A DNA stretch of 64,000 nt from Anseongella ginsenosidimutans (lineage in GTDB: Bacteria; Bacteroidota; Bacteroidia; Sphingobacteriales; Sphingobacteriaceae). The stretch is from positions 558,001 to 622,000 of the forward strand of contig NZ_CP042432.1 of the NCBI RefSeq assembly GCF_008033235.1, given 5' to 3'. Numbering within the stretch: position 1 is the stretch's first letter; every line of letters starts with the position of its first letter. A model generated the notes under the pieces. The model searched no databases and had not been told where the DNA came from. It worked only from the letters and a program-made list of their open reading frames with translations. Below are positions 11,588 to 27,760 of the stretch, piece by piece. The position numbers and the translations under genes are program-made.

Positions 11588-13231
11588 TCATTTGTCGAGG
11601 GCTTTTATCCGGGAAACAATGGTATCCAGGACGTTTAACGGAAAGATCGCGGGCTGCCCGTACCAGAAAAAGGACCCGTCCCCTTCATAAGTATGCGAAC
11701 GAATATGCCAGTCCTGGGGAAGGTAACTGGAAACGTCGTTGCAATAACCGGCCACGCTCACCATTTTATCCGGCCATATGGCCCTGATAGCCGGCCCGTA
11801 CCCGGTCACAACTTCTCTTGAAAGCCCTACCAGCTTCCAGTTGCCGATATTGATCGTTTGTACATACACCGGTAAATTTTCCGGCATCGAACCTTCCCTG
11901 TAGTAGCCAAGCATGAGATCGGCCCACCGCAAATTCCGTTCTGCAGTCAGATCCCCCTCTTTACCTTCGTTCTCTTTCCGGAACTGGCGGATCTTTTCCT
12001 CCGGCCAGGGTGTTACGGGAAATAAAATGGTATCGAGGGAATAGGAAATGGCGCCGCGGAGGTCTTGCATTTCCCCATTCAGTATATCCAGCACATCGCC
12101 TGCCAGCTCCCTTCCCGTAACAGAATGGTCATCGCTCCTGGGATTGATATCCCCGGCGCACCCCTGGATAAACAAGGGGTTTTCCACGCCGGTTTCCGCT
12201 TTCAGAACCTGCCGGGCAACCCCGGGATAATTTGCGGAGATGGTGTAGCTTTCTTTTCCGGCATTCCTGAAAACAGGGTGGCATCCGGTTAAAAACAAGA
12301 GGCCTTCGGTTTTTCTTTTCCTTACTATTTTCAGAATGTCCAGGCTCTGGTCATAAGGCGTTTCGCGATCAGGAGAGGTCCTGTTATGACCAATGTTAGT
12401 TGTGCCCCTTCCAAAGTACAAAGCAGCTGATGACAGGTCGTCCAATGCTTTTTCAATACTTTCGATAAGTCCTTTTTTAACGATATTGTTCAGGTAGGCG
12501 CTGTCGGGAAGCTGCCCGTGCCCAAAAGCCGGGTATTTTTGCATGGAAGGCGCAAAATGGGTGTGGGAGCTATTGATCAGTACAGCTGCGGGCGGAATTC
12601 CTCTCCGGCGGAAGATCGCTTCCTTCACCCCGGCAGCCAGGGAATAATCGATACCGCAAAGGTCCGCGCTCACGATCACTGCCGTTTCACCGCCCTTTTT
12701 CACAGCAAGCGCTGTCACCGAAAGATTGCCGTCCGAACTATGCTCCGCCCTGTAAAGCTTACCGTCGCCCGCAAGGGCATAAAGCCTGTTTCCCATTACG
12801 GCTATACGTTTCACGTCAATAGTATAGGTAAACCCGTTACGCCAGCCTATTTTAAGCCAGGTACCCGCCGCAGTGTTCAGTTTCCGCTGCCAGAGCGTAT
12901 TATCCCCGCAAAGCGCGTAGCGCATTCCCTGATGATCCGCAGTGCTTAGCACACCTGCCGGAAGCCCGGGCAGGGATTTTTCCGTTACCGCTGTTTTTTT
13001 CATCCGGCCGGCCAGAGCTACCGCTCCGGGCGATTCAGCCGCCGGCTCCCAGGTGATACTGAAACGCCCTTCGCGCGGGGCGCCGTAGCCCGCAAGAGCA
13101 AGCGAAAAGACCGTGCTGTCCGGCTCTATACTTACCGTGGACGTACCTATCCGGTAACTTTGCTGTGCCTGCAAGCTATTAAAGCCGCAAACAGCTGAAA
13201 AGAGTAAAAGGAAAACTTTTCCGTATCTCAT
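11588..13231 (-). CDS. Neutral ceramidase-like exported protein with an inserted beta-propeller-like segment
   Basis: I chose ATG 13231, which gives the signal peptide MRYGKVFLLLFSAVCGFNSLQAQ and 547 residues; an ATG seven codons upstream overlaps murQ. The fold resembles the neutral/alkaline ceramidase N-terminal domain. It has VIVSADLCGIDYSLA, the NSSHTHFAPS motif (compare SHTHSGPG of ceramidases), LTGCHPV and IQGCAGDINPR. Between the usual AGYG start and this core lies an insertion of about 120 residues with repeats such as RYALCGDNTLWQRKL and RLYALAGDGKLYRAE, which look like tectonin or Kelch-type propeller blades. Substrate unknown. It follows murQ by 13 bases. Confidence 0.72.
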   Translation of the reverse strand: MRYGKVFLLLFSAVCGFNSLQAQQSYRIGTSTVSIEPDSTVFSLALAGYGAPREGRFSITWEPAAESPGAVALAGRMKKTAVTEKSLPGLPAGVLSTADHQGMRYALCGDNTLWQRKLNTAAGTWLKIGWRNGFTYTIDVKRIAVMGNRLYALAGDGKLYRAEHSSDGNLSVTALAVKKGGETAVIVSADLCGIDYSLAAGVKEAIFRRRGIPPAAVLINSSHTHFAPSMQKYPAFGHGQLPDSAYLNNIVKKGLIESIEKALDDLSSAALYFGRGTTNIGHNRTSPDRETPYDQSLDILKIVRKRKTEGLLFLTGCHPVFRNAGKESYTISANYPGVARQVLKAETGVENPLFIQGCAGDINPRSDDHSVTGRELAGDVLDILNGEMQDLRGAISYSLDTILFPVTPWPEEKIRQFRKENEGKEGDLTAERNLRWADLMLGYYREGSMPENLPVYVQTINIGNWKLVGLSREVVTGYGPAIRAIWPDKMVSVAGYCNDVSSYLPQDWHIRSHTYEGDGSFFWYGQPAIFPLNVLDTIVSRIKALDK

Positions 13232-13244
13232 GGAAGCGCGGTAT

Positions 13245-14066
13245 TCAACCATTTAAACTGCTTTGAAGGTAATCCAATGCCTTTTTCGCCCCTCCATGAG
13301 CCAGGACAAGCTTCCGGGCTTCCTCATAGTCGCTTAGTTCACCTTTTTCCATCAGGATCCTCACTGCGCGGTCCGTGATCTTTTCATTCAGCAGCAGCAC
13401 ATTCACCATCCGGTTATCTTCCACTCTTCCCAGCCGGATCATGACTGTTGTACTGATCATATCGAAGATCATTTTCTGGGCTGTACCGCATTTCATCCGG
13501 GTACTCCCGGTAATAAATTCAGGACCTGTAATAACTTCCACGGGAAAATCCGCCTGCCGGGCAATGGGAGAAGAGGGATTGCTCACAATGCAGCCGGTCG
13601 TAATGTGATGCTTTCGGCATTCCTCCAGCGAGGCAAGCACGAAGGGCGTGGTGCCGCTGGCCGAAATGCCTATTACGATATCCTTTTCATTAATGTCTTT
13701 TTCCCGGAGTTGCCGCCACCCTTCCCTGGTGTCGTCTTCCTTTTCCTCCGGCGCAAGGTAAAGGTTTTCAATCCCGCCGGCCAGTACCACATTAACCAGC
13801 CCTTTTTCTATACCGTAAGTGTTCGGAAGCTCAATGGCGTCCAGTACCGATAACCGCCCCCCGCTGCCCGCGCCCAGGTAAAACATGCGGCCTCCGGCCT
13901 GAATTTTGGAAACGATCGCATCAATAAGCCGGTTGACCTGCGGCAGTGAAGCTTCTATCGCACAGGCGACTGTTTTATCTTCCGCATTGATATGGGCGGT
14001 GATCTCTTCCACCGGCATTTTTTCCAGGTGCCTGTACTTCGACGGCTGCTCTGTTATTCTCATCAT
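13245..14066 (-). CDS. murQ: N-acetylmuramic acid 6-phosphate etherase
   Basis: The 273-residue SIS-domain protein has the MurQ signatures. These are GRMFYLGAGSGGRLSVLDAIELPNTYG, DIVIGISASGTTPFV and ITGSTRMKCGTAQKMIFDM. The enzyme cleaves the D-lactyl ether of MurNAc-6-phosphate to give GlcNAc-6-phosphate in peptidoglycan recycling. It overlaps the upstream aminotransferase gene by four bases (ATGA), so the two are co-translated. The three-gene unit ends with the ceramidase-like gene. The ADP-glucosamine-like chemistry of its neighbours is not obvious, so the unit may serve amino-sugar scavenging. Confidence 0.93.
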   Translation of the reverse strand: MMRITEQPSKYRHLEKMPVEEITAHINAEDKTVACAIEASLPQVNRLIDAIVSKIQAGGRMFYLGAGSGGRLSVLDAIELPNTYGIEKGLVNVVLAGGIENLYLAPEEKEDDTREGWRQLREKDINEKDIVIGISASGTTPFVLASLEECRKHHITTGCIVSNPSSPIARQADFPVEVITGPEFITGSTRMKCGTAQKMIFDMISTTVMIRLGRVEDNRMVNVLLLNEKITDRAVRILMEKGELSDYEEARKLVLAHGGAKKALDYLQSSLNG

Positions 14067-15406
14067 ATCGACAACTCTTTGGCATATTCTCGGATCTTGC
14101 GAATGGCGTCCGCTATTTGCTCCATGTCAGTTCTTTTCCCCAGGAGCATGGTTTGATAAAACCAGACGCCCTGCTCAGTGGTAAGCTTGTCATTCTGCGG
14201 GCATTGACTCCGCTCAAGCCACTGATTCATAACCTTTTCCCCGTAAATCCGGAGATAGTGTTTATTCTTTGCCAGGCCTGTTACATAATCCTGCCGGTTC
14301 ATGGGCCCATACCCGCTTGAACAGGGTACTCCTTCGGCATTCAGCGCTTCAATGAATTTTTCGCGGCTCAGGCCTGCAAAGTATTCCTTGTCATAACGGA
14401 ACATATAGAGATGCCAGGCGCTCCTGGTCGTACCTTCATAAAGTTTGGCCGGCATGATACCGGGGATCTCGTTCAGGAGTTCCGTCAGGTAGGACGCATT
14501 CTCATTCCGGCGCCTGGCCTGCTCCTCTGTGCGGGTCATCTGTGCGAGCAGCAGGCCGCCCTGGAATTCGGTCAGCCGAAGGTTGCTGGCGCGTGTACCC
14601 TCTCCGGGGTTAAAAGCGGCTGTTTGCCCGCCCTGCCCCTGGTTATGAAAACGGTAACAGGCCTGGACGAACTGTTCGCTATTCGTGGTAACCGCGCCGC
14701 CTTCTGCGGAATTGAGGTTCTTGGACGACTGAAAGCTAAACGCTCCCGCCAGACCGTAAGAACCCACCTTTTTTCCCTTCCACTCTGCCAGGTGCGCCTG
14801 ACAGGCATCTTCAATAAGAGGGATATTTCTTTTACCTGCAATTGCAAGCAGCGTATCCAGATCAGCCGGAGAGCCGCCGATATGTACCGGCATAATGGCC
14901 CTGGTCTGCGGGCTGATCGCTTCTTCTATTTTATTCGCGTCCACCTGGAAGCTCTCAATATCCGTGTCAGCAAAGATGGGCAGCGCATAATTCAGCACCA
15001 CCACGTTATAGGTGGCGATAAAAGTATATACCGGGATAACGACTTCATCCCCCGGACCCAGGTCCATGGCCCCGAGTATCGTATAAAGAGCGCTTGTGCC
15101 GCTTGATACGCCAAGGCAATGATTCACGCCAAAAACTTTACTGTATTCCTTCTCAAATGCAGCAACCACGCTGCCGCCCAGGCGTCCCCATGTTCCGCTG
15201 TCAAGCACATCCAGCAAAGCCTTTTCCTCCGTCTGGTCAAAGACCGGCCATCCGGGAAATTCGCCTGGATGGGCCTTTGGCCCGCCGAGAAGGGCCGGCT
15301 TGGGGCCGGCGGCGCCCGAACGGGCAACAGAGGGCAGGCTCACTGCCAGGCCGGCCCCGGCAATTACCGCTGTGCGTATGAACTGTCTTCGTGGTACTGT
15401 TTTCAT
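14063..15406 (-). CDS. DegT/DnrJ/EryC1-type PLP aminotransferase with a Tat signal
   Basis: The 447-residue protein begins MKTVPRRQFIRTAVIAGAGLAV, a twin-arginine export signal. It continues with a complete DegT-type aminotransferase domain: SGTSALYTILGAMDLGPGDEVV, FADTDIESFQVD, IEDACQAHLAEWKGKKVGSYG, and the PLP lysine in SFQSSKNLNSAEGG (Lys229). DegT enzymes normally make amino sugars in the cytoplasm. Export of a folded, cofactor-loaded form by Tat is what the leader implies. It is the first gene of the unit with murQ and the ceramidase-like gene, and is divergent from the DeoR regulator. Confidence 0.88.
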   Translation of the reverse strand: MKTVPRRQFIRTAVIAGAGLAVSLPSVARSGAAGPKPALLGGPKAHPGEFPGWPVFDQTEEKALLDVLDSGTWGRLGGSVVAAFEKEYSKVFGVNHCLGVSSGTSALYTILGAMDLGPGDEVVIPVYTFIATYNVVVLNYALPIFADTDIESFQVDANKIEEAISPQTRAIMPVHIGGSPADLDTLLAIAGKRNIPLIEDACQAHLAEWKGKKVGSYGLAGAFSFQSSKNLNSAEGGAVTTNSEQFVQACYRFHNQGQGGQTAAFNPGEGTRASNLRLTEFQGGLLLAQMTRTEEQARRRNENASYLTELLNEIPGIMPAKLYEGTTRSAWHLYMFRYDKEYFAGLSREKFIEALNAEGVPCSSGYGPMNRQDYVTGLAKNKHYLRIYGEKVMNQWLERSQCPQNDKLTTEQGVWFYQTMLLGKRTDMEQIADAIRKIREYAKELSI

Positions 15407-15458
15407 CGTTGCTTATGTTTAGGGTGTTGAAGGATGGTTTTCCTGCGGTTTATATGCG

Positions 15459-15474
15459 GTTTTGAAATCAAAAC
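15459..15474. promoter_or_regulatory. Palindrome between the aminotransferase and DeoR genes
   Basis: GTTTTGA-AA-TCAAAAC is a 7-base inverted repeat in the 131-base divergent gap. It lies between the aminotransferase start (15406) and the DeoR start (15538). Its position, and its length for a dimer, fit an operator of the DeoR protein controlling both directions. A TGCGGTTT direct repeat lies just beside it. Assignment to DeoR is inference. Confidence 0.45.
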
Positions 15475-15537
15475 TAAACGCAGAAATCAATAAATCCAAA
15501 TTTCCTGCAATCTTTTTATTTTTTGTACTTTCATGCC

Positions 15538-16287
15538 ATGTTAAAGGAGGAAAGACAAAAAACCATTATGCGGGAAATCAATCTGCATAACCGCGTATTA
15601 TCCGCAGACCTTTGCAATTTGCTGAACGTTTCCGACGATACCGTACGCCGGGACCTGAAGGATCTCGCCGATAGCGGAAAGATCATAAAAATACACGGGG
15701 GCGCCATGAGCAAATCCTTTGTATCTACATTTGAGACACAGGACGAGGTGTATGCGGTGCAGGCAAAACGGCAAATTGCCGCAAAGACGCTTTCCCTGTT
15801 TAAGCGGAACATGGTAGTCCTCACGGAAGGAGGCACGACTATTCTGGAATTTGCAAAAATGATCCCGGAAAAGCTTCCGGCTACGGTCTTTACGATCAGT
15901 CCGCAGGTAGCGATTACCCTTTCTGCTCATAGTAATTTAGAGGTAATCACCATTGGGGGGAAACTCAACAAGAACGCCAACCTGCATACCGGCTCCAGCG
16001 TCCTCAACCAGCTCTCTGAAATAAAAGTGGATCTCTGCCTTCTTGGAGCCAATGCCCTTTCAGTTCAGGACGGCCTGACGGATGTGGACTGGGAAGTGGT
16101 CCAGGTAAAGAAGGCGCTTATCCGCGCGGCCCGGAAAGTAGCTGTGCTGAGCATTTCCGAGAAGTTAAACACCGCGCAAAGACTGAAGATCTGCGACCTG
16201 AACCAAATCCATTACCTGGTCACCGAGCTATCGCCGGAAAGTCATTTCCTGGCCCCTTTCCGAAATAACGATCTGCAGCTTATTTAA
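15538..16287 (+). CDS. DeoR-family transcriptional regulator
   Basis: I chose ATG 15538 (MLKEERQKTIMREINLHNRV), which gives 249 residues and the usual DeoR start; the ATG five codons earlier adds residues unlike the family. The N-terminal winged helix has LCNLLNVSDDTVRRDLKDLADSGKI followed by IHGGA, both diagnostic. The C-terminal DeoRC domain (VVLTEGGTTILEFAKMI, TIGGKLNKNANLHTG, DLCLLGANAL) binds a phosphorylated sugar. It is divergent from the aminotransferase-murQ unit and convergent with the ADP-ribosylglycohydrolase gene, with stop codons overlapping by four bases. It could control either unit. Confidence 0.92.
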   Translation: MLKEERQKTIMREINLHNRVLSADLCNLLNVSDDTVRRDLKDLADSGKIIKIHGGAMSKSFVSTFETQDEVYAVQAKRQIAAKTLSLFKRNMVVLTEGGTTILEFAKMIPEKLPATVFTISPQVAITLSAHSNLEVITIGGKLNKNANLHTGSSVLNQLSEIKVDLCLLGANALSVQDGLTDVDWEVVQVKKALIRAARKVAVLSISEKLNTAQRLKICDLNQIHYLVTELSPESHFLAPFRNNDLQLI

Positions 16288-17936
16288 TACAGGTTTTTGG
16301 GATCTTTCCAAATCTCCGGATCATCGTAAAGTTCGCTATCGCTGTATTTTTTTGGCGGCGTTTTAAATCCCGCGGCCAGGAACTTTGCTTTCAGCCGGTC
16401 CAGGCCTTTAAAATCCCCTCCATGAAAAATATTGTCCATTACTTTCCAATAGCCGCTTAAAGCAAACGTTGCCTCCTTCCACTGCCGGGGATGCTTTTTG
16501 CTTAGCGAGTCATTCATGCCAAGACTGATAGCCATGTAAGCTGCACGGGCCTTTGCGTCTCTGTCTTGCTTTAGCAGATCGCTGAGTATCTTTTTTTCCT
16601 GTGCGTCGCTTAACAGTTCTTGCTGCCGCCGGGGAGAGGCCAGATGAATAACAGGCGCCGGCTTCTCAGCCGGGATCTCGTACACGAGGATATTGTTTTT
16701 GACCGTTTTCCGCCCGCCCTGCTCCTGGTTCACCAGCTCAAACAGTTCAATCAAACGGTCGGCAAAGCTGGTGATGGTTTCATTCACGGGCATGTTATCC
16801 CTGGTGGTATTCCTGTAGCGGTCAACGATCAACCATCCTCCGGATCCATTTCCGGTCAGCATATTACGATAACCGGTAGTAACTCCCAGGATCGTACCCA
16901 GCGTAGCCGCATTGCAGTCGGCATCCCAGCCTAAATTAAAGGCCAGTTTCAGGCTTTCGGCAAAATCTCCTTTCCCATAAAGCAAAGCCGTGATAATAGC
17001 GCCTGTATTCAGTTCGGATCCGTTGCTGTCTCTTGTATTTCCGCCTTCTACGCTGTATTTCTCCCGGAGCCTCCGCCGCGTCTCCTTCCAGTCCTTTGGA
17101 TTTTGCGCATGCCAGCGGCGGATGTCCCCGATAATATCCGCAATAACGCTTCCGGTATCCAGAGCGGCAATTCCCGCCTCCAGAACCTTGTTGATATCTT
17201 CTTCAATAAAAGCTGTTGCAATCATCGCGGTAAAGAGCTGGGTCGTTTGTGCCGGCTCCCCCGAAATGGCAGCAGTGGTATAATTCAGGCCAATTTTTGC
17301 TGCCGTCTGTGGCATGGCAGGAACGATGAGCCCGAACGTTTCTGACAGGAACTGGCCGGAAATATTGAATTCGCCCCAGGGGTTAAGTACCATCTTCCCG
17401 GTAAGCGGCGGCTGGATCCCCAGGTCCATAAGATAACGGGCATACCGGTTTGAACACCATATCCGGTCGTTGATCTTTTCTTTCCATAAAGAAGCGATGG
17501 CTTCAGGCGACAGGAACACATTCCTGCTTTTTTGCATTTCAATGATATAGACCCACTCAAAATCCGTATCATCATCCGTTCGGGCTCCTTCGGGAAGGGA
17601 AGGCGTATAGTCCTGAACATTGCCCGGTTCATCGTAATATTTGAATTCATGAGGAAGGCCGTTGAGATTACCAAGCATCTGTCCCAGCAGGCCTCCCCTG
17701 ATCTTGTCTGTAATGGTTTCCACCGGCACTTGTATAATTGTATTCCCGGGAGCTGGAGCAGCCGGGGGAGCGGGAGGAGCAGTTGCCGGGGCGACAGCGG
17801 CTGGCAAAGCAGGAGGAATAACTGCCTGGGCGGGAGCGGCAGCCGGAGCCGCCGCCGGAACGGCCCCTGCCGTTACCAAGAATAACAGGGCGGAAACAGC
17901 GATCAGCCCTGATCTTTCGGTGATATTTAAGATCAT
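16284..17936 (-). CDS. Exported ADP-ribosylglycohydrolase family protein (second of two)
   Basis: The 550-residue protein has a signal peptide (about residues 1-35) and an Ala/Pro-rich linker (to about residue 67). The ADP-ribosylglycohydrolase fold follows: IRGGLLGQMLGNLNGLPHEF, the metal-binding TDDDTDFEW, and the second metal motif LGWDADCNAATLGTILG. These are the Mg2+ ligands of the DraG/ARH family, which cleaves ADP-ribose or related N-glycosides. A C-terminal helical region of about 150 residues has no clear match. The start overlaps the preceding gene by four bases (ATGA). Acting outside the cytoplasm, it would release ribose for the SusC/SusD-permease-ribokinase genes upstream. Its exact substrate is unknown. 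Confidence 0.85.
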   Translation of the reverse strand: MILNITERSGLIAVSALLFLVTAGAVPAAAPAAAPAQAVIPPALPAAVAPATAPPAPPAAPAPGNTIIQVPVETITDKIRGGLLGQMLGNLNGLPHEFKYYDEPGNVQDYTPSLPEGARTDDDTDFEWVYIIEMQKSRNVFLSPEAIASLWKEKINDRIWCSNRYARYLMDLGIQPPLTGKMVLNPWGEFNISGQFLSETFGLIVPAMPQTAAKIGLNYTTAAISGEPAQTTQLFTAMIATAFIEEDINKVLEAGIAALDTGSVIADIIGDIRRWHAQNPKDWKETRRRLREKYSVEGGNTRDSNGSELNTGAIITALLYGKGDFAESLKLAFNLGWDADCNAATLGTILGVTTGYRNMLTGNGSGGWLIVDRYRNTTRDNMPVNETITSFADRLIELFELVNQEQGGRKTVKNNILVYEIPAEKPAPVIHLASPRRQQELLSDAQEKKILSDLLKQDRDAKARAAYMAISLGMNDSLSKKHPRQWKEATFALSGYWKVMDNIFHGGDFKGLDRLKAKFLAAGFKTPPKKYSDSELYDDPEIWKDPKNLY

Positions 17937-19474
17937 TGAATATATTGTTTGTCCTGAACAGGTACGTTTCCAAATACCAGCGCTTCGGTAACCTGGATCT
18001 TTACGCCCTCAGCAGGATTCTTCCACTCGAAAACAACGGTATGCCGTCCGTGGGGCAGATTAAATTTGAAACCTATTTCATCCCGCCGGGTGTTATGGTT
18101 GGCAGGCAGCTTTACTGATTCGGCCAGTTTTCCGTCAATGTACATGTCCACGAGCGCGACATACTCTTCCGGCCCGGTAACACTTCCTTTAAAGATGATC
18201 CCCTTTCCTTCAAAATCAAAGGAGCCTACCTGTTCGATGGTTTTTCGTATCCAGGCTTTCCTGGTAGGATAATGCCCTTCAAATCCGGCTTCCAGGCGAA
18301 CAGGCCGCGGCGCCTGGTAACTGATCTGCACAGCCGTGTCGCTCAGCTTCCCTTCATTTCTTTTAACCACCTCCAGCGCCTGCTCATAGCTCATCCTGTA
18401 CAGGTCATTGAGGGAAGCGTCCGTGTATGCAAAGTTCCTGTCTTCCACCGGCCGGAGCGCCTTGCGGTACTTTTCCGGGATATTGTCGTAGCCGATCATC
18501 GTTCCCAGTATTCCCGCCGCCGAAGCAGGGTTACAATCGGAATCCTGCCCGCAGCGCATGGCAATATCCATTGTTTTTGTAAAATCTCCTTCTCCGTATA
18601 AAAGACCAATAAGAATATAGGCCGAATTAAGGCTTGCATCTATATTGAACGGAACAAACACCCCGTCCGGGCAATACAGATCTTCGGACCAGTTACGTTC
18701 CACTTCAAACCATGCCTGTTTCCAATCGTCCGGGTATTTTTCATAGCTGGCGATCACGCTTTCCATGCAGCGTCTGTATTTACTTCCTTCCGGGATGCTC
18801 TTCAGCGCCTCCGTCACGACCCACTTCACATCATCTGAAACAAAGGCCAGGGAATACATGGCCGCCACATACACCCCGCCGTACCAGCCATCCCCGTAAT
18901 TCATAATATGGCCGATGCTGTCGCTGATCGTACTGGCGGTATTGGCCATTCCCGGCGACATGAGCCCCGCGAAATCCGCTTCGATCTGGAAATCTATGTC
19001 ATCCGCATGGGGGTTATTCATCCAGTGGCCCGATTGGGGAGGCCGGATCCCGTTAAGAATATTGAAGCGGGCGGCCTGGTTGGCATGCCAGAGCGGATAG
19101 GAAGCATTGGCAAAAGCATTAGCGAAAGAATCAACCGGGGCGTCCAGGCCGTATTCCTCGAAAACACGAACGAAGGTCAGGTCCATATATACGTCGTCGT
19201 AGAGCCCGGGAATGTTATCGTACCACCATTCTATACTGGTACTGTCCCACTCCACCGGCACATAGTCCTGTATCATGGTACCGTTGAACTTGAATTCGGT
19301 GTGACCTCCGTAGGTGACGCCGATCGTCTGCCCGGCCCAGCCTCCCTTTATCTTGTCCTGCAGCGTACGTTTATCCAGGCTAATCTGCGACTTATCCTGA
19401 ATGGAGGGCTTTTCAGGAGAGCAGGAAAATACCAGGCAAAGTGTTGCCAGTGCCGGAAGTAATATAGATTTCAT
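17933..19474 (-). CDS. ADP-ribosylglycohydrolase lipoprotein (first of two)
   Basis: The 513-residue protein begins MKSILLPALATLCLVFSC, a lipoprotein signal with the cysteine at residue 18. The catalytic domain has IKGGWAGQTIGVTYGGHTEF, a DD pair in GLYDDVYMDLTF in place of the classic TDDT motif, and MRCGQDSDCNPASAAGILG with the second metal-binding D-x-D. From about residue 395 it carries a beta-sandwich-like domain (FEGKGIIFKGSVTGPEEYVALVDMYIDG), possibly sugar-binding. Sequence and domain plan differ from the neighbour at 16284, so this is not a recent duplicate. It lies 41 bases after susD and is likely anchored in the outer membrane. Confidence 0.85.
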   Translation of the reverse strand: MKSILLPALATLCLVFSCSPEKPSIQDKSQISLDKRTLQDKIKGGWAGQTIGVTYGGHTEFKFNGTMIQDYVPVEWDSTSIEWWYDNIPGLYDDVYMDLTFVRVFEEYGLDAPVDSFANAFANASYPLWHANQAARFNILNGIRPPQSGHWMNNPHADDIDFQIEADFAGLMSPGMANTASTISDSIGHIMNYGDGWYGGVYVAAMYSLAFVSDDVKWVVTEALKSIPEGSKYRRCMESVIASYEKYPDDWKQAWFEVERNWSEDLYCPDGVFVPFNIDASLNSAYILIGLLYGEGDFTKTMDIAMRCGQDSDCNPASAAGILGTMIGYDNIPEKYRKALRPVEDRNFAYTDASLNDLYRMSYEQALEVVKRNEGKLSDTAVQISYQAPRPVRLEAGFEGHYPTRKAWIRKTIEQVGSFDFEGKGIIFKGSVTGPEEYVALVDMYIDGKLAESVKLPANHNTRRDEIGFKFNLPHGRHTVVFEWKNPAEGVKIQVTEALVFGNVPVQDKQYIQ

Positions 19475-19515
19475 CGTTGTTTTATTAAATGTTCGTGACA
19501 GGGCATTCCTCTTTA

Positions 19516-21090
19516 TCAGGGATTATAACCGGGATTCTGCGGAAAGTTTTCTTTTCCCATAATATTCAGCTCCGAATTAGGCAAGGGCCAGCGGATATTA
19601 TGTTCCTGGATATTTGTACGAGGCAGCAGGTAGTTTTCCGCCGTATAGGGATTTTCTTCGCCTGCATATTGCCTTACCTGGCTGATCAGCTTGCCGATTC
19701 GCTTCAGGAAGAACCAGCGATGCCCTTCCAGCCCAAGTTCACGGGCCTGTTCGTCCATGATCATTTGCTCCGTGATGGTTCCGGTTTCGGGAGCATTTCC
19801 TGCTCTTGTCCAGGTTTTATTGTAATATTTCAAGGCATTCGTATTATCGCCGTTCCGCATGTACGCTTCTGCGGCGAAGAGGTAGGTCTGTGCCAGGCGA
19901 TAGACCATAAAATCCTTATAAGACCAGCCATCATCAGGTGAGGATACGGTCCATTGATCCACAAATTTGGTGGTAGTCGGATGGAAAGCAGTATAGTAAA
20001 GGCTTTTATTTTCCTCGGTAACCTTTACCACGTCGCCAACTTTTGTACCCGCCGGCATGCCGGGAACAACCTTGGTAACAATGTATTCGGTTTTATAAAA
20101 TTGCTGGTAACGCTGATCATGTTCCTGGTCATACAGGCCGAACAAATAGGCATTCGGGTACATCCACCCCCATCCCCAACCGCCGTTCAGGAAACTCCGT
20201 TCACCGCATACTTTATCGTACCAAGGAATAAAATGCGACTGCATCCTGTTGGTGGCGACATCGTATCCGCCCTTGGCGCTTCGCAATATATAGAGTGATT
20301 CGCTGTGATCCAGTTTAGCGCCGGAGAACAATTGATCAAGCGGGACCAATGCATAGCCGGTATGCTTAAAGATCTCTTCGGTCTGCTTAATGGCTTCGGA
20401 CCAGTTTTCCTGCCACATGGCCACGTTAGCTTTGATATGGCGGGCAAGCGCTTCGGTTACCTTACCGGGATCGCGTATGCCTTTATCCAGGTTCTCAATG
20501 GCATAATCCAGGTCGGAATTCACCAGGGCATAGATCTCTTCCGGGGTCGCGGGACGGTAATCTCTTGGCTGGTTTACGTTTTCCGGAGTAGTAGGTTCGG
20601 TATTCAGCCAGATGCGGTCGTATTTCTTGAATAGCCAGAAATAAGAGTGCGCCCTGAAATACCTTGCCTGGGCGATGGTATTTTTCACTTCCGGGTTTGA
20701 TTCCGCCAGCTGCTCTCCATAGTAGATGATTTCATTGGCCTTGCCAATCACGGAATAGTGGTATTTCCAGATGGTGGAAGCTACGCCGTCCCCGTTCTGC
20801 ATCTCAATCTTATCGTATATCCGATAGCCGTTGGCAGGCCCTCCGTTCATTACCGTAATATCCGTACCGCCGATGATCGACAGTATCTCCGCTCCATCCC
20901 ACCACGCGCCGTCGCGTGGCCCGCGCTGCTCGAGTACGTACAAGCCGATCATGGCTTTTTCAAGCCCGGCTGGCGTCGAATATAGTTCTACCGAGGTCAG
21001 GCTGGTTTCGCTTTCCTCCATGAGCTGCTCCGTGCAGCTTGTCGCTGTAAGTGCGAACAGGGCGACAATTATTGTGAATAGCTTCTTCAT
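19516..21090 (-). CDS. SusD/RagB-family outer-membrane ligand-binding lipoprotein
   Basis: The 524-residue protein starts MKKLFTIIVALFALTATSC, a lipoprotein signal. It has typical SusD features: early TSVELYSTPAGLEKAMIGLY, the TPR-like stretch AQARYFRAHSYFWLFKKYDRIWLN followed by EIYALVNSDLDYAIENLD, and the C-terminal YRLAQTYLFAAEAYMRNGDNTNALKYYNKTWTRAGN with ERGHRW-like LGLEGHRWFFLKRIGKL. SusD proteins cap their SusC partner and capture the ligand at the cell surface. The adjacent susC lies 11 bases upstream. In this locus the ligand is probably ribose or a nucleoside/ADP-ribose compound rather than a polysaccharide. Confidence 0.95.
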   Translation of the reverse strand: MKKLFTIIVALFALTATSCTEQLMEESETSLTSVELYSTPAGLEKAMIGLYVLEQRGPRDGAWWDGAEILSIIGGTDITVMNGGPANGYRIYDKIEMQNGDGVASTIWKYHYSVIGKANEIIYYGEQLAESNPEVKNTIAQARYFRAHSYFWLFKKYDRIWLNTEPTTPENVNQPRDYRPATPEEIYALVNSDLDYAIENLDKGIRDPGKVTEALARHIKANVAMWQENWSEAIKQTEEIFKHTGYALVPLDQLFSGAKLDHSESLYILRSAKGGYDVATNRMQSHFIPWYDKVCGERSFLNGGWGWGWMYPNAYLFGLYDQEHDQRYQQFYKTEYIVTKVVPGMPAGTKVGDVVKVTEENKSLYYTAFHPTTTKFVDQWTVSSPDDGWSYKDFMVYRLAQTYLFAAEAYMRNGDNTNALKYYNKTWTRAGNAPETGTITEQMIMDEQARELGLEGHRWFFLKRIGKLISQVRQYAGEENPYTAENYLLPRTNIQEHNIRWPLPNSELNIMGKENFPQNPGYNP

Positions 21091-21101
21091 GATACGCAGT
21101 A

Positions 21102-24100
21102 TTAAAAGGTAATATCTAATCCGAATTGCACGACCCGGGCTTCAGGGTAGTCACCGGGGTTTGATTCGGGGCTATAGGATTGATAATCAGTGAACGTAAG
21201 GAAATTCTCCAGGCCGGCGTAGATCCGCAATGACTTCACAAAAGCCTGGCTGGCAAGAGAAGCGGGCAGCGTGTAGCCCAGGGTGACATTCCGTAAACGT
21301 ACATAGGACGCATCCTGATAGCCGGTGACATTCAGGTAAGGATTGTTCATGCCGGATTCCCTGGGCCGGGGCGCTGTGTTTGAGGGATTTTCCGGTGTCC
21401 AGTAGTCCACCTTTAAGCCATTGGTCAGCCCGGTCAGGGCGCCGCCTGAATTACTGTCAAACAGATAGTGGTTCAGTTTGTAAACCCCGTTTACCCAGTA
21501 AAGATCCCAATACAGGTCAAAACCCTTGAATTTAAACGAAGAATTGAGCGAGGCGATGAATTTGGGGTCTCTGTTGTAAAGTATTTTATCGTCTTCATTG
21601 ATCAGGTCATCATTGTTCAGGTCTTCCACACGAACATCTCCCGCCTGGGCGTTCAATGTCGGGTGTGCGTCCATAAAGGCCTGGTCAGAAGCCTGCCAGA
21701 TACCGGCGAATTTATAATCGAAATAGGAGTTAACGGATTCCCCGATGAACCAATTGTTCCTCAGGTCATTCAAGGGTTTCCCTTCTTCATCGGTCCTTCC
21801 GTCTATCTTTACCAGTTTGTTGACGTTCCTGGAAAACATCAGGCCCACGTTCCATTGCAAATCATTTTTCATGAGAGGTACCAGGTTCACCATGACCTCT
21901 ACCCCTGAATTCCGGACTTCGCCAAGGTTCACCGTTTGGGAAGTATAACCCAGGATATTGGGCAGGGACTTATTAACCAGCAAGTCAATCGTACGGGTAT
22001 TATAATACTCTATGGACCCGGAAATCCTGTTGTTCAATAAACCGAAATCCAGTCCTATATTGGAGGATAAGGAAGTTTCCCACTTGAGATCCGGGTTGTA
22101 TAAGGAAGAAGAAGGAAGAAAGCCGGAGGTAATGGCCGGAGTTCCCGCGTTATTCATGAGGATACCCTGATACAGGACGGTAACGCCCAGGGAATTATAA
22201 GGGGAAATTGCCTGGTTGCCTACCGCTCCGTAGCTGACGCGCAATTTCAAATCATCAAGCCAAAGGCTTTCTTTCAGGAATTCTTCCTGGGATACCCTCC
22301 ACATTAATGAACCGGAAGGAAAATATCCGAATTTATTATTGGCGCCGAATACGGAAGAACCGTCCGCCCGCATGGTAAAGGTAGCAAGGTATTTATCCAG
22401 CATACTGTATCGCAGGCGGCCCATAAAGGATAATATTTTGCGGTCAGAGATTCCGCGCGTGGGAATATTCGCTTCCTGCGCGCTTCCTATCCCGTCCGCC
22501 CCGAAAATATCGGAAGGAAAGTCGGTCGCTGAAGTCCCAATGGATTCGTAGCGGATCTTGTTGATACTTTGCACCAGGGTGACGTCCAGGCGATGGATAT
22601 CCATGTCTTTATTATAGGAAAGGATGTTTTCCAGCAGAAAGTCCGTGTTTTTCGATTCGGATACCGAACCGTTCCCATTGTAGATCCGACCGTTCTGATG
22701 AAGGCTTGTCTGGTAGAATTTGTTGGCGGAACCGTTGTTATTTACGCTTGTGTTCAACTTATAACTCAGGTCTTCCAGAATATCCCACTCGACAAACATA
22801 TTGGCCAGTAAATTATTATACCTGGAAACATTGGATGATTCCTGCGAATTCCAGAGCGGGTTCGTGCTGTTCGACTCCCCTATTATATAATTCAGGTTGC
22901 CGTTCTCATCATAGGGCGTAGCATAGGGCGGCGCCGTCAGATGACGGTAGAATCCATCCCAGGAGCCGTCTTCGAACGTTTGCTTGCCATAGGAATAAGC
23001 AATGTTCCCACCCAGGGTCAGGTTGCTCAGGAGCTGGTGATCCAGGTTCAGGCGAAAATTGGTCCTGTTATACCCCGCGTCCCTGGCCAGTCCCTGCTGG
23101 TCCATATTTGCCGCTGAAAACAACAAGCGGGTACGGTCTGTACCTGAACGTACGCTGGCGTTATAGTGCCGCTGCCAGGCGTCGCGGATCATCAGTTTCT
23201 CCCAATCCGCTGTTTGATTGTTTTTTATGGCCGACAAGATAGCGGCCGGAAAAGCTTGTTCATCAGTCGGGTATTCCCCGCCATTCTTGGTGCGTACGGC
23301 TTCCCGCCGAAGCTGAGCCCATTCGTCCGGCGAGTAAACATCAAAATTACGCTTAAGCTGATGCAGCGACTGCACCGTGCTTACGTCCACCTGGAACGTA
23401 TTGGCCTTCGCCCGTTTGGTGGTTACCAGGACCACGCCGTTGGCCGCCCGGGCGCCGTAAATGGCCGTTGACGCCGCGTCCTTCAGCACCTCGATCGTGG
23501 CAATGTCATTGATGTTCACATTATCAACATCCGAAACCGGAACTCCGTCAAGTACAAACAAGGGGCTGTTCCCGCCATTCAGCGACCGTGTACCGCGAAT
23601 GGTAATGTTTGACCATCCTCCCGGACGGGCGTTACCCTGCGTAATATACACGCCTGATGCCTTGCCGCGAAGAAGCTCGGAGATGCTGGTGGAGGATTGC
23701 TGCGCCAGGTCATCCGCATCAATAGACACAATGGAACCGGATATATCGCTTTTTTTCTGGACACCATAACCGACCACGACCACTTCTTCCAGGTTGATAT
23801 AATCAGGAACAAGAAGGATATCAAGGCTGGTTTCTCCATTCAGGGGGATTACCTGGCTTTGATACCCGACAAACGAGACTTCTAGCAAAGCTTCGGCGGA
23901 AGAAAGTTGAATGGAATATTCTCCGTTCTCATTGGTTACCACGCCGTTTGCCTGCCCAGGCTCCCTTACACTCGCACTTTCCAGGGGAGTTCCGGTGATA
24001 CTGTCGGTTATTCGCCCTGTTACCCGTACCTGCGCGATCACAAACTGGCTGAACAGCACAAACATGGCGATCGTAAACACAGTTTTAGTCAATTTTCCTT

Positions 24101-24104
24101 TCAT
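21102..24104 (-). CDS. SusC/RagA-family TonB-dependent outer-membrane transporter
   Basis: The 1000-residue protein has a signal peptide (about residues 1-24) and a carboxypeptidase-like domain (VRVTGRITDSITGTPLESASV). The SusC plug signature follows: EEVVVVGYGVQKKSDISGSI, SISELLRGKASGV, VLDGVPVSDVDNVNINDIATIEVLKDAAS, IYGARAANGVVLVTTK. A long beta-barrel ends in the aromatic terminus VVQFGLDITF. There is no N-terminal STN domain, so no sign of anti-sigma signalling. It imports the SusD-captured ligand using TonB energy. It is followed by susD and preceded by the sugar permease gene. Confidence 0.96.
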   Translation of the reverse strand: MKGKLTKTVFTIAMFVLFSQFVIAQVRVTGRITDSITGTPLESASVREPGQANGVVTNENGEYSIQLSSAEALLEVSFVGYQSQVIPLNGETSLDILLVPDYINLEEVVVVGYGVQKKSDISGSIVSIDADDLAQQSSTSISELLRGKASGVYITQGNARPGGWSNITIRGTRSLNGGNSPLFVLDGVPVSDVDNVNINDIATIEVLKDAASTAIYGARAANGVVLVTTKRAKANTFQVDVSTVQSLHQLKRNFDVYSPDEWAQLRREAVRTKNGGEYPTDEQAFPAAILSAIKNNQTADWEKLMIRDAWQRHYNASVRSGTDRTRLLFSAANMDQQGLARDAGYNRTNFRLNLDHQLLSNLTLGGNIAYSYGKQTFEDGSWDGFYRHLTAPPYATPYDENGNLNYIIGESNSTNPLWNSQESSNVSRYNNLLANMFVEWDILEDLSYKLNTSVNNNGSANKFYQTSLHQNGRIYNGNGSVSESKNTDFLLENILSYNKDMDIHRLDVTLVQSINKIRYESIGTSATDFPSDIFGADGIGSAQEANIPTRGISDRKILSFMGRLRYSMLDKYLATFTMRADGSSVFGANNKFGYFPSGSLMWRVSQEEFLKESLWLDDLKLRVSYGAVGNQAISPYNSLGVTVLYQGILMNNAGTPAITSGFLPSSSLYNPDLKWETSLSSNIGLDFGLLNNRISGSIEYYNTRTIDLLVNKSLPNILGYTSQTVNLGEVRNSGVEVMVNLVPLMKNDLQWNVGLMFSRNVNKLVKIDGRTDEEGKPLNDLRNNWFIGESVNSYFDYKFAGIWQASDQAFMDAHPTLNAQAGDVRVEDLNNDDLINEDDKILYNRDPKFIASLNSSFKFKGFDLYWDLYWVNGVYKLNHYLFDSNSGGALTGLTNGLKVDYWTPENPSNTAPRPRESGMNNPYLNVTGYQDASYVRLRNVTLGYTLPASLASQAFVKSLRIYAGLENFLTFTDYQSYSPESNPGDYPEARVVQFGLDITF

Positions 24105-24144
24105 GTATTTTGGTATTTTGGTTATGTTATTCTAAAAGCTAAGA

Positions 24145-25149
24145 TCATTTTCCGGCGGCGATGATGAGGCCTAGCCCCAGCACGAACAGGAGGAACATGC
24201 CTGCAATGAGTTGGTTGACACTTTTGGAAGCGCCTTTAAATTCTTTCCAGATAAGGACTCCCCAGAGAGCAGCTACAAGTGTGGCTCCTTGTCCGAGCCC
24301 ATAGGAAATGGCCGGGCCGGCCTTTCCCGCTGCAATCAGGTTGAACAAATTTCCAAGCCCCCAGATGCATCCTCCAAGTATCCCGACAAAATGCAATCCC
24401 AGGCGGCCTTTGAAATAGGCCGCATAGCTGATGGGCGCGCCTTCAAGAGGCTTGCGCATTAATACGGTATTGAACACAAGATTGCTCGCAACAATTCCGG
24501 CGGCAAATATTACGAAAGCAGTATAAGGCGTCATTTTACCCGCAGCAGGCTCCCTAAAATTTTCCAGCTCCATGCCGGCTGCAATAAACGGATAGAAAGT
24601 AGACATCAGCCCGCCCGCAACGATCGCGATCAGGATCCACTTGCCGACCTCCTTTTTCCCGGCCTTGCCGGAATGTTTGCTATAGGCGACAGCATTCAGG
24701 ATAATTGCCAATACCACAAGCGCCACGCCTGCAAATAATAACAGCGGATCTCCTTTGCTGGCCAGGTAATAGTTCAGTACCACGCCTATTACCAGGGCCA
24801 GGCCAATCCCGATGGGGAAGGCGACTGCCATACCGGCTCCCGCGATGGCCGCGGTGAGGAGAATATTGGCAAGGTTGAACACCACCCCTCCGATAACGGC
24901 GGTTCGGATATTATCCGGATGGGCTTGCGCGATATCCTCAAGAAAAGGGCGGCCGGATTCACCGGTACTGCCTAATGTAAAGGCTCCGATAATGGCAAGG
25001 AGCAGGATTCCCAGTACATAATCCCAATAGAATAGCTCAAACCGCCATTCCTTTCCCACCAACTTCTGCGTGTTGGCCCAGGAGCCCCAGCAGAGCATCG
25101 TGATCAGGCAGCATATAACTGCAAGGGCATAATTTTCTACAATGAACAT
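24145..25149 (-). CDS. GRP/RhaT-like sugar permease
   Basis: The 334-residue protein is almost entirely hydrophobic, with about ten membrane helices. It begins with ALAVICCLITMLCWGSWANTQKL, the start typical of the GRP (glucose/ribose porter) part of the drug/metabolite transporter superfamily. GMAVAFPIGIGLALVIGVVLNYY and a conserved second half, LGLHFVGILGGCIWGLGNLFNL, follow. It lies between the ribokinase gene and susC and is therefore the likely inner-membrane ribose importer of this locus. The substrate is inferred from context. Confidence 0.88.
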   Translation of the reverse strand: MFIVENYALAVICCLITMLCWGSWANTQKLVGKEWRFELFYWDYVLGILLLAIIGAFTLGSTGESGRPFLEDIAQAHPDNIRTAVIGGVVFNLANILLTAAIAGAGMAVAFPIGIGLALVIGVVLNYYLASKGDPLLLFAGVALVVLAIILNAVAYSKHSGKAGKKEVGKWILIAIVAGGLMSTFYPFIAAGMELENFREPAAGKMTPYTAFVIFAAGIVASNLVFNTVLMRKPLEGAPISYAAYFKGRLGLHFVGILGGCIWGLGNLFNLIAAGKAGPAISYGLGQGATLVAALWGVLIWKEFKGASKSVNQLIAGMFLLFVLGLGLIIAAGK

Positions 25150-25161
25150 ATGATTCAGGTT

Positions 25162-26087
25162 CTATTTTACAGCATGCAATAACACTTCATTCCTGTAGGG
25201 GATGGACGACTGCGCTCCGAACCGGGTAACGGCAATAGCCGCCGCCCGGCAGGCAAATGAAACTGCCTCCACCAGGGTTTTCCCTTCGGCCAGCGCCGTG
25301 ACCAGCGCACCGTTAAAAACATCCCCGGCGGCGGTCGTATCCACCGTTTCTACCTCCGGGGCGGGTATATGATGGAAGGCGCCATTGTCCATCACTACCG
25401 CTCCTCGTTTTCCCAGCGTGATGATCACGCTTTTAACGCCCTGGCGGATGATATTTTCGGCCGCCTCCCGGGCGCTGGCAATATCTTTTATTTCAATACC
25501 GGATAACATTTCGGCTTCGTTCTCATTTGGTGTGATCACGTCAATGAGGTGGAAAAGCTCCGGGATCAGGTTATTGGCCGGGGCCGGGTTAAGAACAACC
25601 ATAAGTCCCCGCTCCCTGGCATAGCGGGCCGCAAATTCCACGGTTTCCATGGGAATTTCCAGCTGAATAAGCAGGATGGTACCGTCGGAATGTTTATCCA
25701 GGGCTTCGGCTACATTCTCAGGCTGCAGGTTGGCATTGGCTCCGGGAGCGACGACAATACTGTTTTCACCTGCCTGGTCCACCGTGATCATCGCGATCCC
25801 TGAGGGGGCGCCGGGATCCGAGAACACGCCTGTAATATCAACACCTTCCTGATCGAACAGCTGCGCAGACTGCTTTCCGAAGATATCATCGCCTATCTTC
25901 CCGATAAATGTTGCATGTCCCCCAGGCGGGCGACAGCAACTGCCTGGTTTGCACCTTTTCCGCCGGGGTTCATAAAGAATTCTCCCCCCAGCACCGTTTC
26001 CCCGGGCTTTGGTATGTGATCTGTTTTCACGACCATGTCCATATTTATACTTCCTACCACCAGAATTTTTCTGTCACGCATATACAT
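25162..26087 (-). CDS. rbsK: Ribokinase, with an apparent one-base frameshift
   Basis: Two frames give a 308-residue PfkB-family kinase, the usual ribokinase length. The first starts at ATG 26087 (an ATG two codons on is possible) and has [10 protein letters not shown] and [17 protein letters not shown]. The second has [18 protein letters not shown], the anion hole and catalytic base in [13 protein letters not shown], and a monovalent-cation region near the end. The break is the five-C run 25919-25923 (G on the coding strand); a sixth base restores [19 protein letters not shown]. Ribokinase makes ribose-5-phosphate from ribose. It leads the locus and sets its likely substrate. It is probably intact in the organism. 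Confidence 0.88.
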
Positions 26088-26136
26088 TGATTAGGGGAAA
26101 AGCCCCGGTTAAGATTAAAATGTGAGTCGCTCTAGC

Positions 26137-26144
26137 CAAATATA
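26137..26144 (-). promoter_or_regulatory. Candidate -7 box of the ribose locus
   Basis: On the minus strand this reads TATATTTG, a match to TAnnTTTG, 50 bases upstream of the ribokinase ATG in the 203-base divergent gap. The -33 element is weak (TTTC at about 17 bases). The gap also holds the promoter of the divergent gene at 26291 and is strongly AT-rich on that side. Confidence 0.4.
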
Positions 26145-26290
26145 GGGGACAATACAGACGGGAAATAGCCATATTTTCGTATTTTCATGAATTACAATCT
26201 CTAAAACCACGCAGCAATTTGTACATAAAGTATTATTTATCAATATATTACAGATAAATTTATTCAGGATTATATTAAATTTACAGGGCT

Positions 26291-27760
26291 ATGCATGAAC
26301 TGGAGACCTTGATAAGCTCGCTTTCCTCTGCCGAGAAGAAAAGCTTTAAAATATACTCCCGCAGGTATGAGGGGGATAAAGATTATTTGTTATTGTTCGA
26401 TATCCTGAGCAAGGGAAAATCGGAGAACTTAGCCGGGGCAGAAGCTATTTTCAACAGCAAATCGCCTACGGGGTCTTTTGACAATGCTGCGAACTACCTG
26501 TTCCGGGTCCTTACCGATCAACTGGTTTCGGTACGCATCAGCCAGGACAAATGGTTCATGCGCCATCATTCTTTTATGAAAGCCCGCCTTTGCTTTGAGC
26601 GGTCGCTTCCGGAAAAAGGTTTGCAGGAACTAAGAAAAACACAAAAACTGGCCGAACAGGCGCAGGATCATATGCTGTATTATCAATCCATCCGCGAAGA
26701 ACTGAATTGGCTGGCGGATGCCGGGTTTGCCAACCTTAGCGAACAGGAACTCGTAAACCGGCAGATGAAATCCAAGCATTCTTTAAAACTGCTGCACCAG
26801 ATACATGAACATTATTCTTTGTATGAATTGCTGAAACACCGGATATTAAATGAACAGATAGGCCTGGATCAGAATAAAAAAACAATCAATGACCTGATCC
26901 TCGGCGAATTAGGCATCATCACAACGGGCGCCCGCTTCCAGTTTGAATCCAGGAAGATACATCTGCTGTTCCAGTCCTTTTTCCTGATTTACACGAAGCA
27001 ATATATTTCCGCGCTGGAGGTTTTCAAGGAATTGAATAACTTATTCGAGGAAAATGAAAATCTTTGGAACTATCCTCCTTATGACAATCTTTCTGCATTG
27101 GAAGGAATCCTGAATAACCTGCGAAGTATAAAATATTATGCGGAAATGGATTATTATATCCGGAAACTTGAGCAGCTCGGCTGCCGCCCATACCCCGAGC
27201 ATTTCAGAAATGCCGTATACCAAACCCTTTGCCTGTATCGTCTGAATAGGTCACTTGGCTTAAAACAATATAAATCAGCATTGCAGCAGATAAGGAGCAT
27301 CGATCTGAATAAGGCGGATAAACAGCTGGAACTGCTTTTATTTTCAGCATTGGCGTATTTTCATAACCAGCAATACCAGCAGGCGAATAAATACATTTCC
27401 CAGGCATTAAATGACAATAAACCGGTCCGGTCATCAAGTATTTACCGGGTATGCCGCCTGATGCACATCATCATTCATTACGAACTGGGCAACATAGATT
27501 ACCTGGATTACGAGATACGTGCTTATAAACGGTTCCGAAGCCAGCAGGGCAGATCATTTAAGATCGAAAAGCTGATCTTCTACCTGATAAAAGTCAATCC
27601 GAAGAAATGCAGCACAGCCAAAAAAAGAATTGCATTCAAAAAGATAAAGAGGGACATTGAAGAGATCAACAACAGCAAACAGGAAGAAGCCATTCAAAAA
27701 TACTTCGACTTCTGTGAATGGATTGTCAAATTCTTTAAAACTGAAACTGCGCTTAACTGA
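26291..27760 (+). CDS. Helical-repeat protein divergent from the ribose locus, possible regulator
   Basis: The 489-residue protein is all-helical by eye, with no signal peptide, membrane segment or recognised catalytic motif. The first 60 residues (LISSLSSAEKKSFKIYSRRY, then DKDYLLLFDILSKG) could include a small DNA-binding domain. The rest looks like degenerate TPR/HEAT pairs (LLFSALAYFHNQQYQQANKYISQAL). The last 60 residues are lysine-rich. It is more AT-rich than its neighbours. Divergent placement at the head of the ribokinase-permease-susCD operon suggests a dedicated regulator; rus loci of Bacteroides carry an atypical regulator gene at one edge. That link is inference. Confidence 0.6.
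   Translation: MHELETLISSLSSAEKKSFKIYSRRYEGDKDYLLLFDILSKGKSENLAGAEAIFNSKSPTGSFDNAANYLFRVLTDQLVSVRISQDKWFMRHHSFMKARLCFERSLPEKGLQELRKTQKLAEQAQDHMLYYQSIREELNWLADAGFANLSEQELVNRQMKSKHSLKLLHQIHEHYSLYELLKHRILNEQIGLDQNKKTINDLILGELGIITTGARFQFESRKIHLLFQSFFLIYTKQYISALEVFKELNNLFEENENLWNYPPYDNLSALEGILNNLRSIKYYAEMDYYIRKLEQLGCRPYPEHFRNAVYQTLCLYRLNRSLGLKQYKSALQQIRSIDLNKADKQLELLLFSALAYFHNQQYQQANKYISQALNDNKPVRSSSIYRVCRLMHIIIHYELGNIDYLDYEIRAYKRFRSQQGRSFKIEKLIFYLIKVNPKKCSTAKKRIAFKKIKRDIEEINNSKQEEAIQKYFDFCEWIVKFFKTETALN

Follow-up and report, generated by a model that had tools for sequence, protein, structure and literature searches.

A 64,000-nucleotide stretch of the Anseongella ginsenosidimutans genome (contig NZ_CP042432.1, positions 558,001 to 622,000; hereafter the window) carries, as judged by synteny, a ribose-scavenging locus of the rus type. 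Six minus-strand genes (16284-26087) encode a ribokinase, a sugar permease, a SusC/SusD pair, and two proteins of the ADP-ribosylglycohydrolase (ADPRG) family, a lipoprotein (B) and an exported protein (A). We assign a probability of roughly 60% to the complete reading, namely, a rus-type operon in which SusC/SusD serve import, A and B cut simple ribosides, the permease and ribokinase take over the freed ribose, and a divergent gene acts as the regulator. Changes in the active sites suggest that A and B may act on simpler ribose compounds than their family name implies. The genome is assembled as one contig of 4.32 Mb with an estimated completeness of 99.67%.

Gene order and its recurrence in Bacteroidota

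A first-pass annotation of the window had described the six genes as a single minus-strand run with gaps below 45 bases, a terminal overlap, and no glycoside hydrolase (GH) of the polysaccharide type. This description was borne out: from ribokinase to B the gaps are 12, 40, 11, and 41 bases, B and A overlap by 4 bases, and no such hydrolase was matched in the run. The permease matches PF07168 and PF06800, both above cutoff, and it is on these families that we call it RusT-like; its RhaT/GlcU match is weak. In the whole genome, the only PF03747 (ADPRG) genes above the gathering cutoff of 26.2 bits are A and B; one further, weak match lies far off.

For Bacteroides thetaiotaomicron, a table in PMC10434189 lists a ribokinase, a TonB receptor, a SusD protein, a DUF4969 protein, a nucleoside hydrolase, and a drug/metabolite transporter (DMT) permease as the rus genes. 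PMC12548429 gives BT2803-09 as activated by ribose, and PMC12596196 equates the RusR iModulon with the Rus polysaccharide utilization locus (PUL) and proposes RusT as the carrier of free ribose. The Anseongella locus has in common with this system a ribokinase (here in two frames), SusC/SusD, a DMT/RhaT-like permease, and, as judged by synteny in relatives, a candidate regulator gene beside the operon. It differs in having two ADPRG-fold hydrolases where the tabulated locus has the DUF4969 protein and the nucleoside hydrolase; no nucleoside hydrolase is encoded at the locus, and the genome's one match lies at 3.26 Mb. Because just 23 of the 80 loci with close B relatives have a nucleoside hydrolase gene in the vicinity of B, we treat it as a variable part of rus, and we see the Anseongella locus as a variant of rus equipped with other hydrolases. 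Rus variants carrying ADPRGs were reportedly described by Glowacki and colleagues in 2020; with these, our locus would share the presence of the same hydrolase family in a rus-type setting. Among the literature matches listed, judged by title and abstract opening and including few subscription papers, there was no paper on ADPRG genes in ribose PULs.

The synteny search proposed in the first-pass annotation recovered the same order in Chitinophaga chungangae (L042), which has all six genes at 58 to 81% identity (RbsK [ribokinase], 77%; RbsU [permease], 76%; SusC, 75%; SusD, 81%; B, 69%; and A, 58%), together with a homologous divergent gene. Across the 80 close B loci (L086, without a usable focal open reading frame [ORF], was counted as a miss), 56 have RbsK or RbsU on the same strand as B and no more than 5 kb away, and 38 have both; RbsK is present in 46, and, with the same distance and strand limits, an RbsU homolog in 48. 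When only loci with 5 kb of sequence on both sides are considered, the proportion with either gene is 29/42. By simple arithmetic, an 11.5-kb span would catch the single ribokinase gene of a 4.3-Mb genome by chance in about 0.3% of cases, compared with the 46/80 observed. No RbsK or RbsU was seen in 20 control stretches around other strong PF03747 genes, judged from ORF listings of 8.5 to 15.5 kb; 13 of these genes display the canonical motif, and the remaining 7 also match PF03747 strongly.

A is rare in the order (3 of 201 genomes). Each of the four A loci found (the window, L042, L147, and L148) contains RbsK, RbsU, and the divergent gene, and A and B stand in tandem in the window and in L042. 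The A frame of L148 is short (174 amino acids). A GH127-like gene (beta-L-arabinofuranosidase family) lies between RbsU and A at L147:10011-12614, and a protein of similar size is encoded in the same place at L148:5909-8563; this position suggests a furanosidase working with A. B was matched in 3 of 41 genomes comprising its own and those of relatives: its own, G004 (55% identity), and G018 (27%). Two Parabacteroides loci (L053:4615-9414 and L059:8381-13194) have one ribokinase gene followed by three B genes in tandem. The genes that recur with the hydrolases are RbsK, RbsU, and the divergent gene, with SusC/SusD being less regular. In the other B loci that have SusC/SusD, identity to the present pair is mostly only about 25 to 30% (SusC) and 22 to 27% (SusD), a few short partial matches being higher, and we therefore consider that the outer membrane pair has been exchanged.

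Fold, active sites, and phylogeny of the two hydrolases

That the run encodes two exported ADPRGs, as the first-pass annotation had proposed, agrees with the PF03747 scores and, by eye, with a lipobox-like start of B and a Sec-type, signal-peptide-like start of A. AlphaFold models (mean predicted local distance difference test score, 90.6 for B and 68.6 for A) were compared with known structures; families missing from the match lists are not thereby excluded. The best structural match is the ADP-ribosylhydrolase (ARH) ARH3, with a Z score of 32.8 (2.4 Å over 297 residues) for residues 33 to 370 of B and 27.5 (3.0 Å over 296 residues) for the core of A (residues 70 to 403). PF03747 membership and these predicted models make A and B distant members of the ARH/DraG fold. 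The annotation had also given the two proteins different extra domains. This stands for B, which has a well-modeled C-terminal beta-sandwich (about residues 381 to 502) of which residues 402 to 502 bear a modest resemblance to the N-terminal domain of an acetyl xylan esterase (Z score, 9.0; 2.3 Å over 96 residues), but not for A, whose C-terminal part is modeled with low confidence.

According to Rack et al. (2018, PMC6309922), the metal motifs are E...SDDT...DSDS in ARH1 and E...[T/S]DDT...DTDT in ARH3, a His contacting the diphosphate of ADP-ribose is conserved in both enzymes, and both cleave only alpha linkages. Neither A nor B has the canonical motif E...[T/S]DDT...DxD[T/S], but the Asp residues and the Glu are kept, and profile matching aligns the Glu-flap glutamate with that of MJ1187, 6DRE, and DraG. 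The two spellings of the metal site in the annotation, DDvyMD and TDDDTD, are correct. The first metal motif is YDDV in B and TDDDTD in A, where an extra Asp shifts the position of the Thr and the register varies ambiguously between alignments. The last motif is DSDC in B and DADC in A, a Cys replacing the Thr/Ser. Among 36 B rows selected for their similarity, there is no variation at D93, D94, D311, D313, C314, and E60, and in a 20-row alignment of A and B the same is true of D121, D338, D340, and E97 of A. Beyond these motif changes, A and B differ from ARH3, ARH1, and DraG in being exported, as their starts indicate, and in having extra C-terminal regions; they share with them the fold (predicted), the metal aspartates, and the glutamate of the Glu flap.

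A set of 81 proteins was grouped by motif: B by its own first motif, A and A-prime by the first motif of A, with the Cys present in A and lacking in A-prime, and canonical proteins by both motifs. Letters used for grouping are invariant by construction; the Cys of B, the Asn of a further group, C, and the His column are independent of it, and for the B residues the 36-row alignment is the independent evidence. The last-motif Thr position is Cys in 37/37 B and Asn in 14/14 C proteins; it is also Cys in 3/3 A and Asn in 4/4 A-prime proteins, two groups separated by that very Cys. The column of the diphosphate-contacting His, corresponding to His163 of human ARH1 by counting along a profile match range assumed to be gap-free, holds His in 14/17 canonical proteins, Ile in 3/3 A, Asn in 4/4 A-prime, Asn in 36/37 B, and Ala in 14/14 C proteins. 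The aligned residues are I224 in A and N192 in B. As far as the alignments allow, this His appears to be absent in A and is uncertain in B, which has a nearby His189.

In a quick tree, made without bootstrap and accompanied by long-branch warnings, A, B, C, A-prime, and canonical proteins form one group each, and A is nearer A-prime and C than B (SH-like approximate likelihood ratio test, 94, which is under the star threshold of the tool). A and B are about 26 to 27% identical. Since they fall in separate groups, they are not recent copies of each other, and a recent tandem duplication was rejected on the basis of the tree and the identity value. They may thus have joined ribose operons separately. 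The C clade has both RbsU and RbsK in 1 of 13 loci (L157), with L160, lacking a usable focal ORF, counted as a miss.

Could A or B be a noncatalytic ligand-binding protein with an ARH fold? The Thr positions of both metal motifs are changed in B (YDDV and DSDC), and the structural matches include, by title, a chloroplast motor subunit and a mitoribosome assembly factor, presumably without enzymatic activity. However, both Asp pairs are invariant among the B rows, as are the three Asp residues named above for A, and the Glu does not vary in either alignment, making this explanation very unlikely.

It is also conceivable that ADP-ribose is what A and B set free, with proteins, NAD, or O-acetyl-ADP-ribose as its source, and that the ribose is recovered downstream. 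The first-pass annotation had called the locus one of ribose/ADP-ribose scavenging; synteny upholds the ribose part, but the ADP-ribose part found no positive support beyond family and fold, that is, PF03747 membership of both hydrolases, ARH3 as the best structural match, and retention of the metal Asp residues and the Glu-flap Glu. Against it, no Nudix, phosphatase, or nucleosidase match was found at the locus, the only nucleoside hydrolase match of the genome being far off, the last metal-site Thr of known ADP-ribosylhydrolases is replaced by Cys in both proteins, and the His column reads Ile in A and, less certainly as a loss, Asn in B. We favor simple ribosides as substrates because an ADP-ribose product would need additional phosphatase and nucleosidase steps, for which no enzymes are encoded at the locus. 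On the sequence evidence, exported riboside hydrolases feeding ribose uptake are thus probably the better explanation, and ADP-ribose scavenging, while possible, is less favored and in our estimate unlikely.

Ribokinase frame, divergent gene, and surroundings

The features of the locus are listed in Table 1. The ribokinase frame is split, which the first-pass annotation had missed: positions 1 to 51 (74.3 bits) and 50 to 296 (289.7 bits) of TIGR02152 fall in two different frames, which join at a run of five G residues (25919-25923). The second-best TIGR02152 match in the genome scores 71 bits, and the intact homologs in the two relatives tested, L042 and L015, exceed the cutoff of the model. 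In the same window, dnaG (31652-33666) also looks interrupted: its 511-amino-acid frame matches eight relatives only to about residue 439 to 449, while their open frames are 639 to 704 amino acids long. Because this nearby gene looks split too, an indel in the assembly is the simpler explanation and probably the cause of the ribokinase break, although this is not proven; genuine inactivation of the ribokinase is not favored, since the dnaG split points to indel errors.

Table 1. Features of the ribose locus and its upstream region in the window
Feature	Position	Strand	Length (aa)	Motif, match, or remark
ADPRG_A, exported ARH-fold hydrolase	16284..17936	-	550	TDDDTDFEW ... GWDADCNAAT; PF03747, 81.2 bits
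ADPRG_B, ARH-fold lipoprotein hydrolase	17933..19474	-	513	GLYDDVYMDLTF ... GQDSDCNPASAAG; PF03747, 122.4 bits
SusD-family lipoprotein	19516..21090	-		PF07980, 99.1 bits
SusC-family TonB-dependent outer membrane transporter	21102..24104	-		TIGR04056, 812 bits (cutoff, 368)
RusT-like sugar permease (Ureide_permease, Sugar_transport)	24145..25149	-		PF07168, 96.7 bits; PF06800, 40.1 bits
Ribokinase (RusK-like)	25162..26087	-		TIGR02152 in two frames; break at G run 25919-25923
Probable promoter region	26137..26192	-		Upstream of ribokinase; by eye
Divergent gene, candidate regulator in RusR position	26291..27760	+	489	No Pfam match

The divergent gene had been overlooked in the first-pass annotation, and a Pfam search with it gave no match. 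It shares 60% identity with its positional counterpart in C. chungangae and 28 to 38% with another 21 members of a single cluster, and a homolog lies within 10 kb of B in 23 of the 80 close B loci. Among 198 genomes of the phylum, the sole other strong match (38% identity; E value, 8e-96) is again divergent to rbsK-rbsU; around 28 weaker loci from this search, RbsK and RbsU were not seen in short flanks. By its position, the gene is a probable candidate for a regulator in place of RusR.

The Bacteroidota -7 promoter consensus is TAnnTTTG. Comparison of two upstream regions by eye showed TATATTTG (26137-26144) and a stretch at about 26161-26192 also before the L042 ribokinase gene; neither was apparent by eye in L147, L148, or L250. 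Positions 26137 to 26192 are thus a predicted, probable promoter region. The inverted repeat GGGGCTTTTCCCC (GGGG-CTTTT-CCCC) at 26094-26106, just 5' of the ribokinase start, was rejected as a conserved element, as no counterpart (GGG, 3 to 8 bases, CCC) was found before four related ribokinase genes.

On the other side of the run, a neighboring cluster (11588-16287) contains a DeoR-type regulator gene convergent with A, followed by a gene for a DegT/DnrJ/EryC1-type protein whose exported start is twin-arginine-like, and it also encodes an N-acetylmuramic acid 6-phosphate etherase-like (MurQ) protein and a weakly ceramidase-like protein. The layout does not support these genes as operon members: the DeoR gene is convergent with a 4-base overlap with A, and the others lie beyond it. 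The Anseongella genome is very rich in SusC/SusD-type loci, with 64 SusD-family matches in 4.3 Mb, some of which are pieces of one gene.

Proposed pathway and its meaning for the family

In the pathway that we propose, SusC/SusD would capture a compound containing ribose and bring it in, and its ribosyl bond would be hydrolyzed by B, placed at the cell surface or outer membrane, and by periplasmic A. The RusT-like permease would carry free ribose over the inner membrane, and the ribokinase would convert it to ribose-5-phosphate; the divergent gene would be the likely regulator. A and B would act as metal-dependent ARH-fold hydrolases, probably cutting simple ribosides, perhaps alpha-linked, rather than ADP-ribosyl groups. 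Given that ARH1 and ARH3 cleave only alpha linkages, alpha-ribosides are a reasonable first guess for both enzymes.

Several observations weigh against this proposal. The riboside substrate is proven by no sequence feature, the ribokinase is frame-broken in the present assembly, and the invariant His of B three residues upstream of the His column makes the loss of the diphosphate contact uncertain for this protein. L147 and L148 carry A with RbsK and RbsU, yet no B, SusC, or SusD was matched in the fetched stretches, and no B was found in the only other genome available for the genus (92% complete). RbsK or RbsU accompanies B in 5 of 20 more distant loci fetched with flanks, or in 11 of 29 when short flanks are counted. 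The 20 were handpicked from 29 B-type places, which lowered the share, as 6 of the 9 left out show RbsK or RbsU in short flanks (L106, L113, L114, L116, L117, and L125, with L113 sharing its stretch with a counted locus). Of the other distant B copies, some adjoin genes for GH3, GH92, or an AGE-type epimerase, and some have unrelated neighbors. The association thus weakens with distance from the present B, and the B clade as a whole need not be ribose specific.

The distant B copies beside GH3, GH92, or epimerase genes, together with the GH127-like gene of L147 and its similarly placed counterpart in L148, would fit a different course, in which A and B cut another furanoside or a glycan, the kinase and the permease handle some other sugar, in place of ribose or besides it, and the clades diversified with their PULs. 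The retention of RbsK or RbsU in 56/80 close B loci and the fact that the kinase passes the ribokinase model in both intact relatives speak against it, and we regard it as quite improbable.

At least 582 stretches encode B relatives, a large and widely shared exported family bearing the name ADP-ribosylglycohydrolase. Riboside hydrolysis at the Anseongella locus would also fit a broader proposal, which we put forward only tentatively and hold to be somewhat less than an even chance: the exported ARH-fold clades of A and B would be simple ribosidases whose binuclear metal site contains a Cys, a riboside-feeding branch of the ADP-ribosylhydrolase family that recurs with ribokinase and a ribose permease across Bacteroidota. 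If the members of this family are ribosidases, its current name misleads, and an easily assayed extracytoplasmic enzyme that releases the ribose of ribosides would become available.

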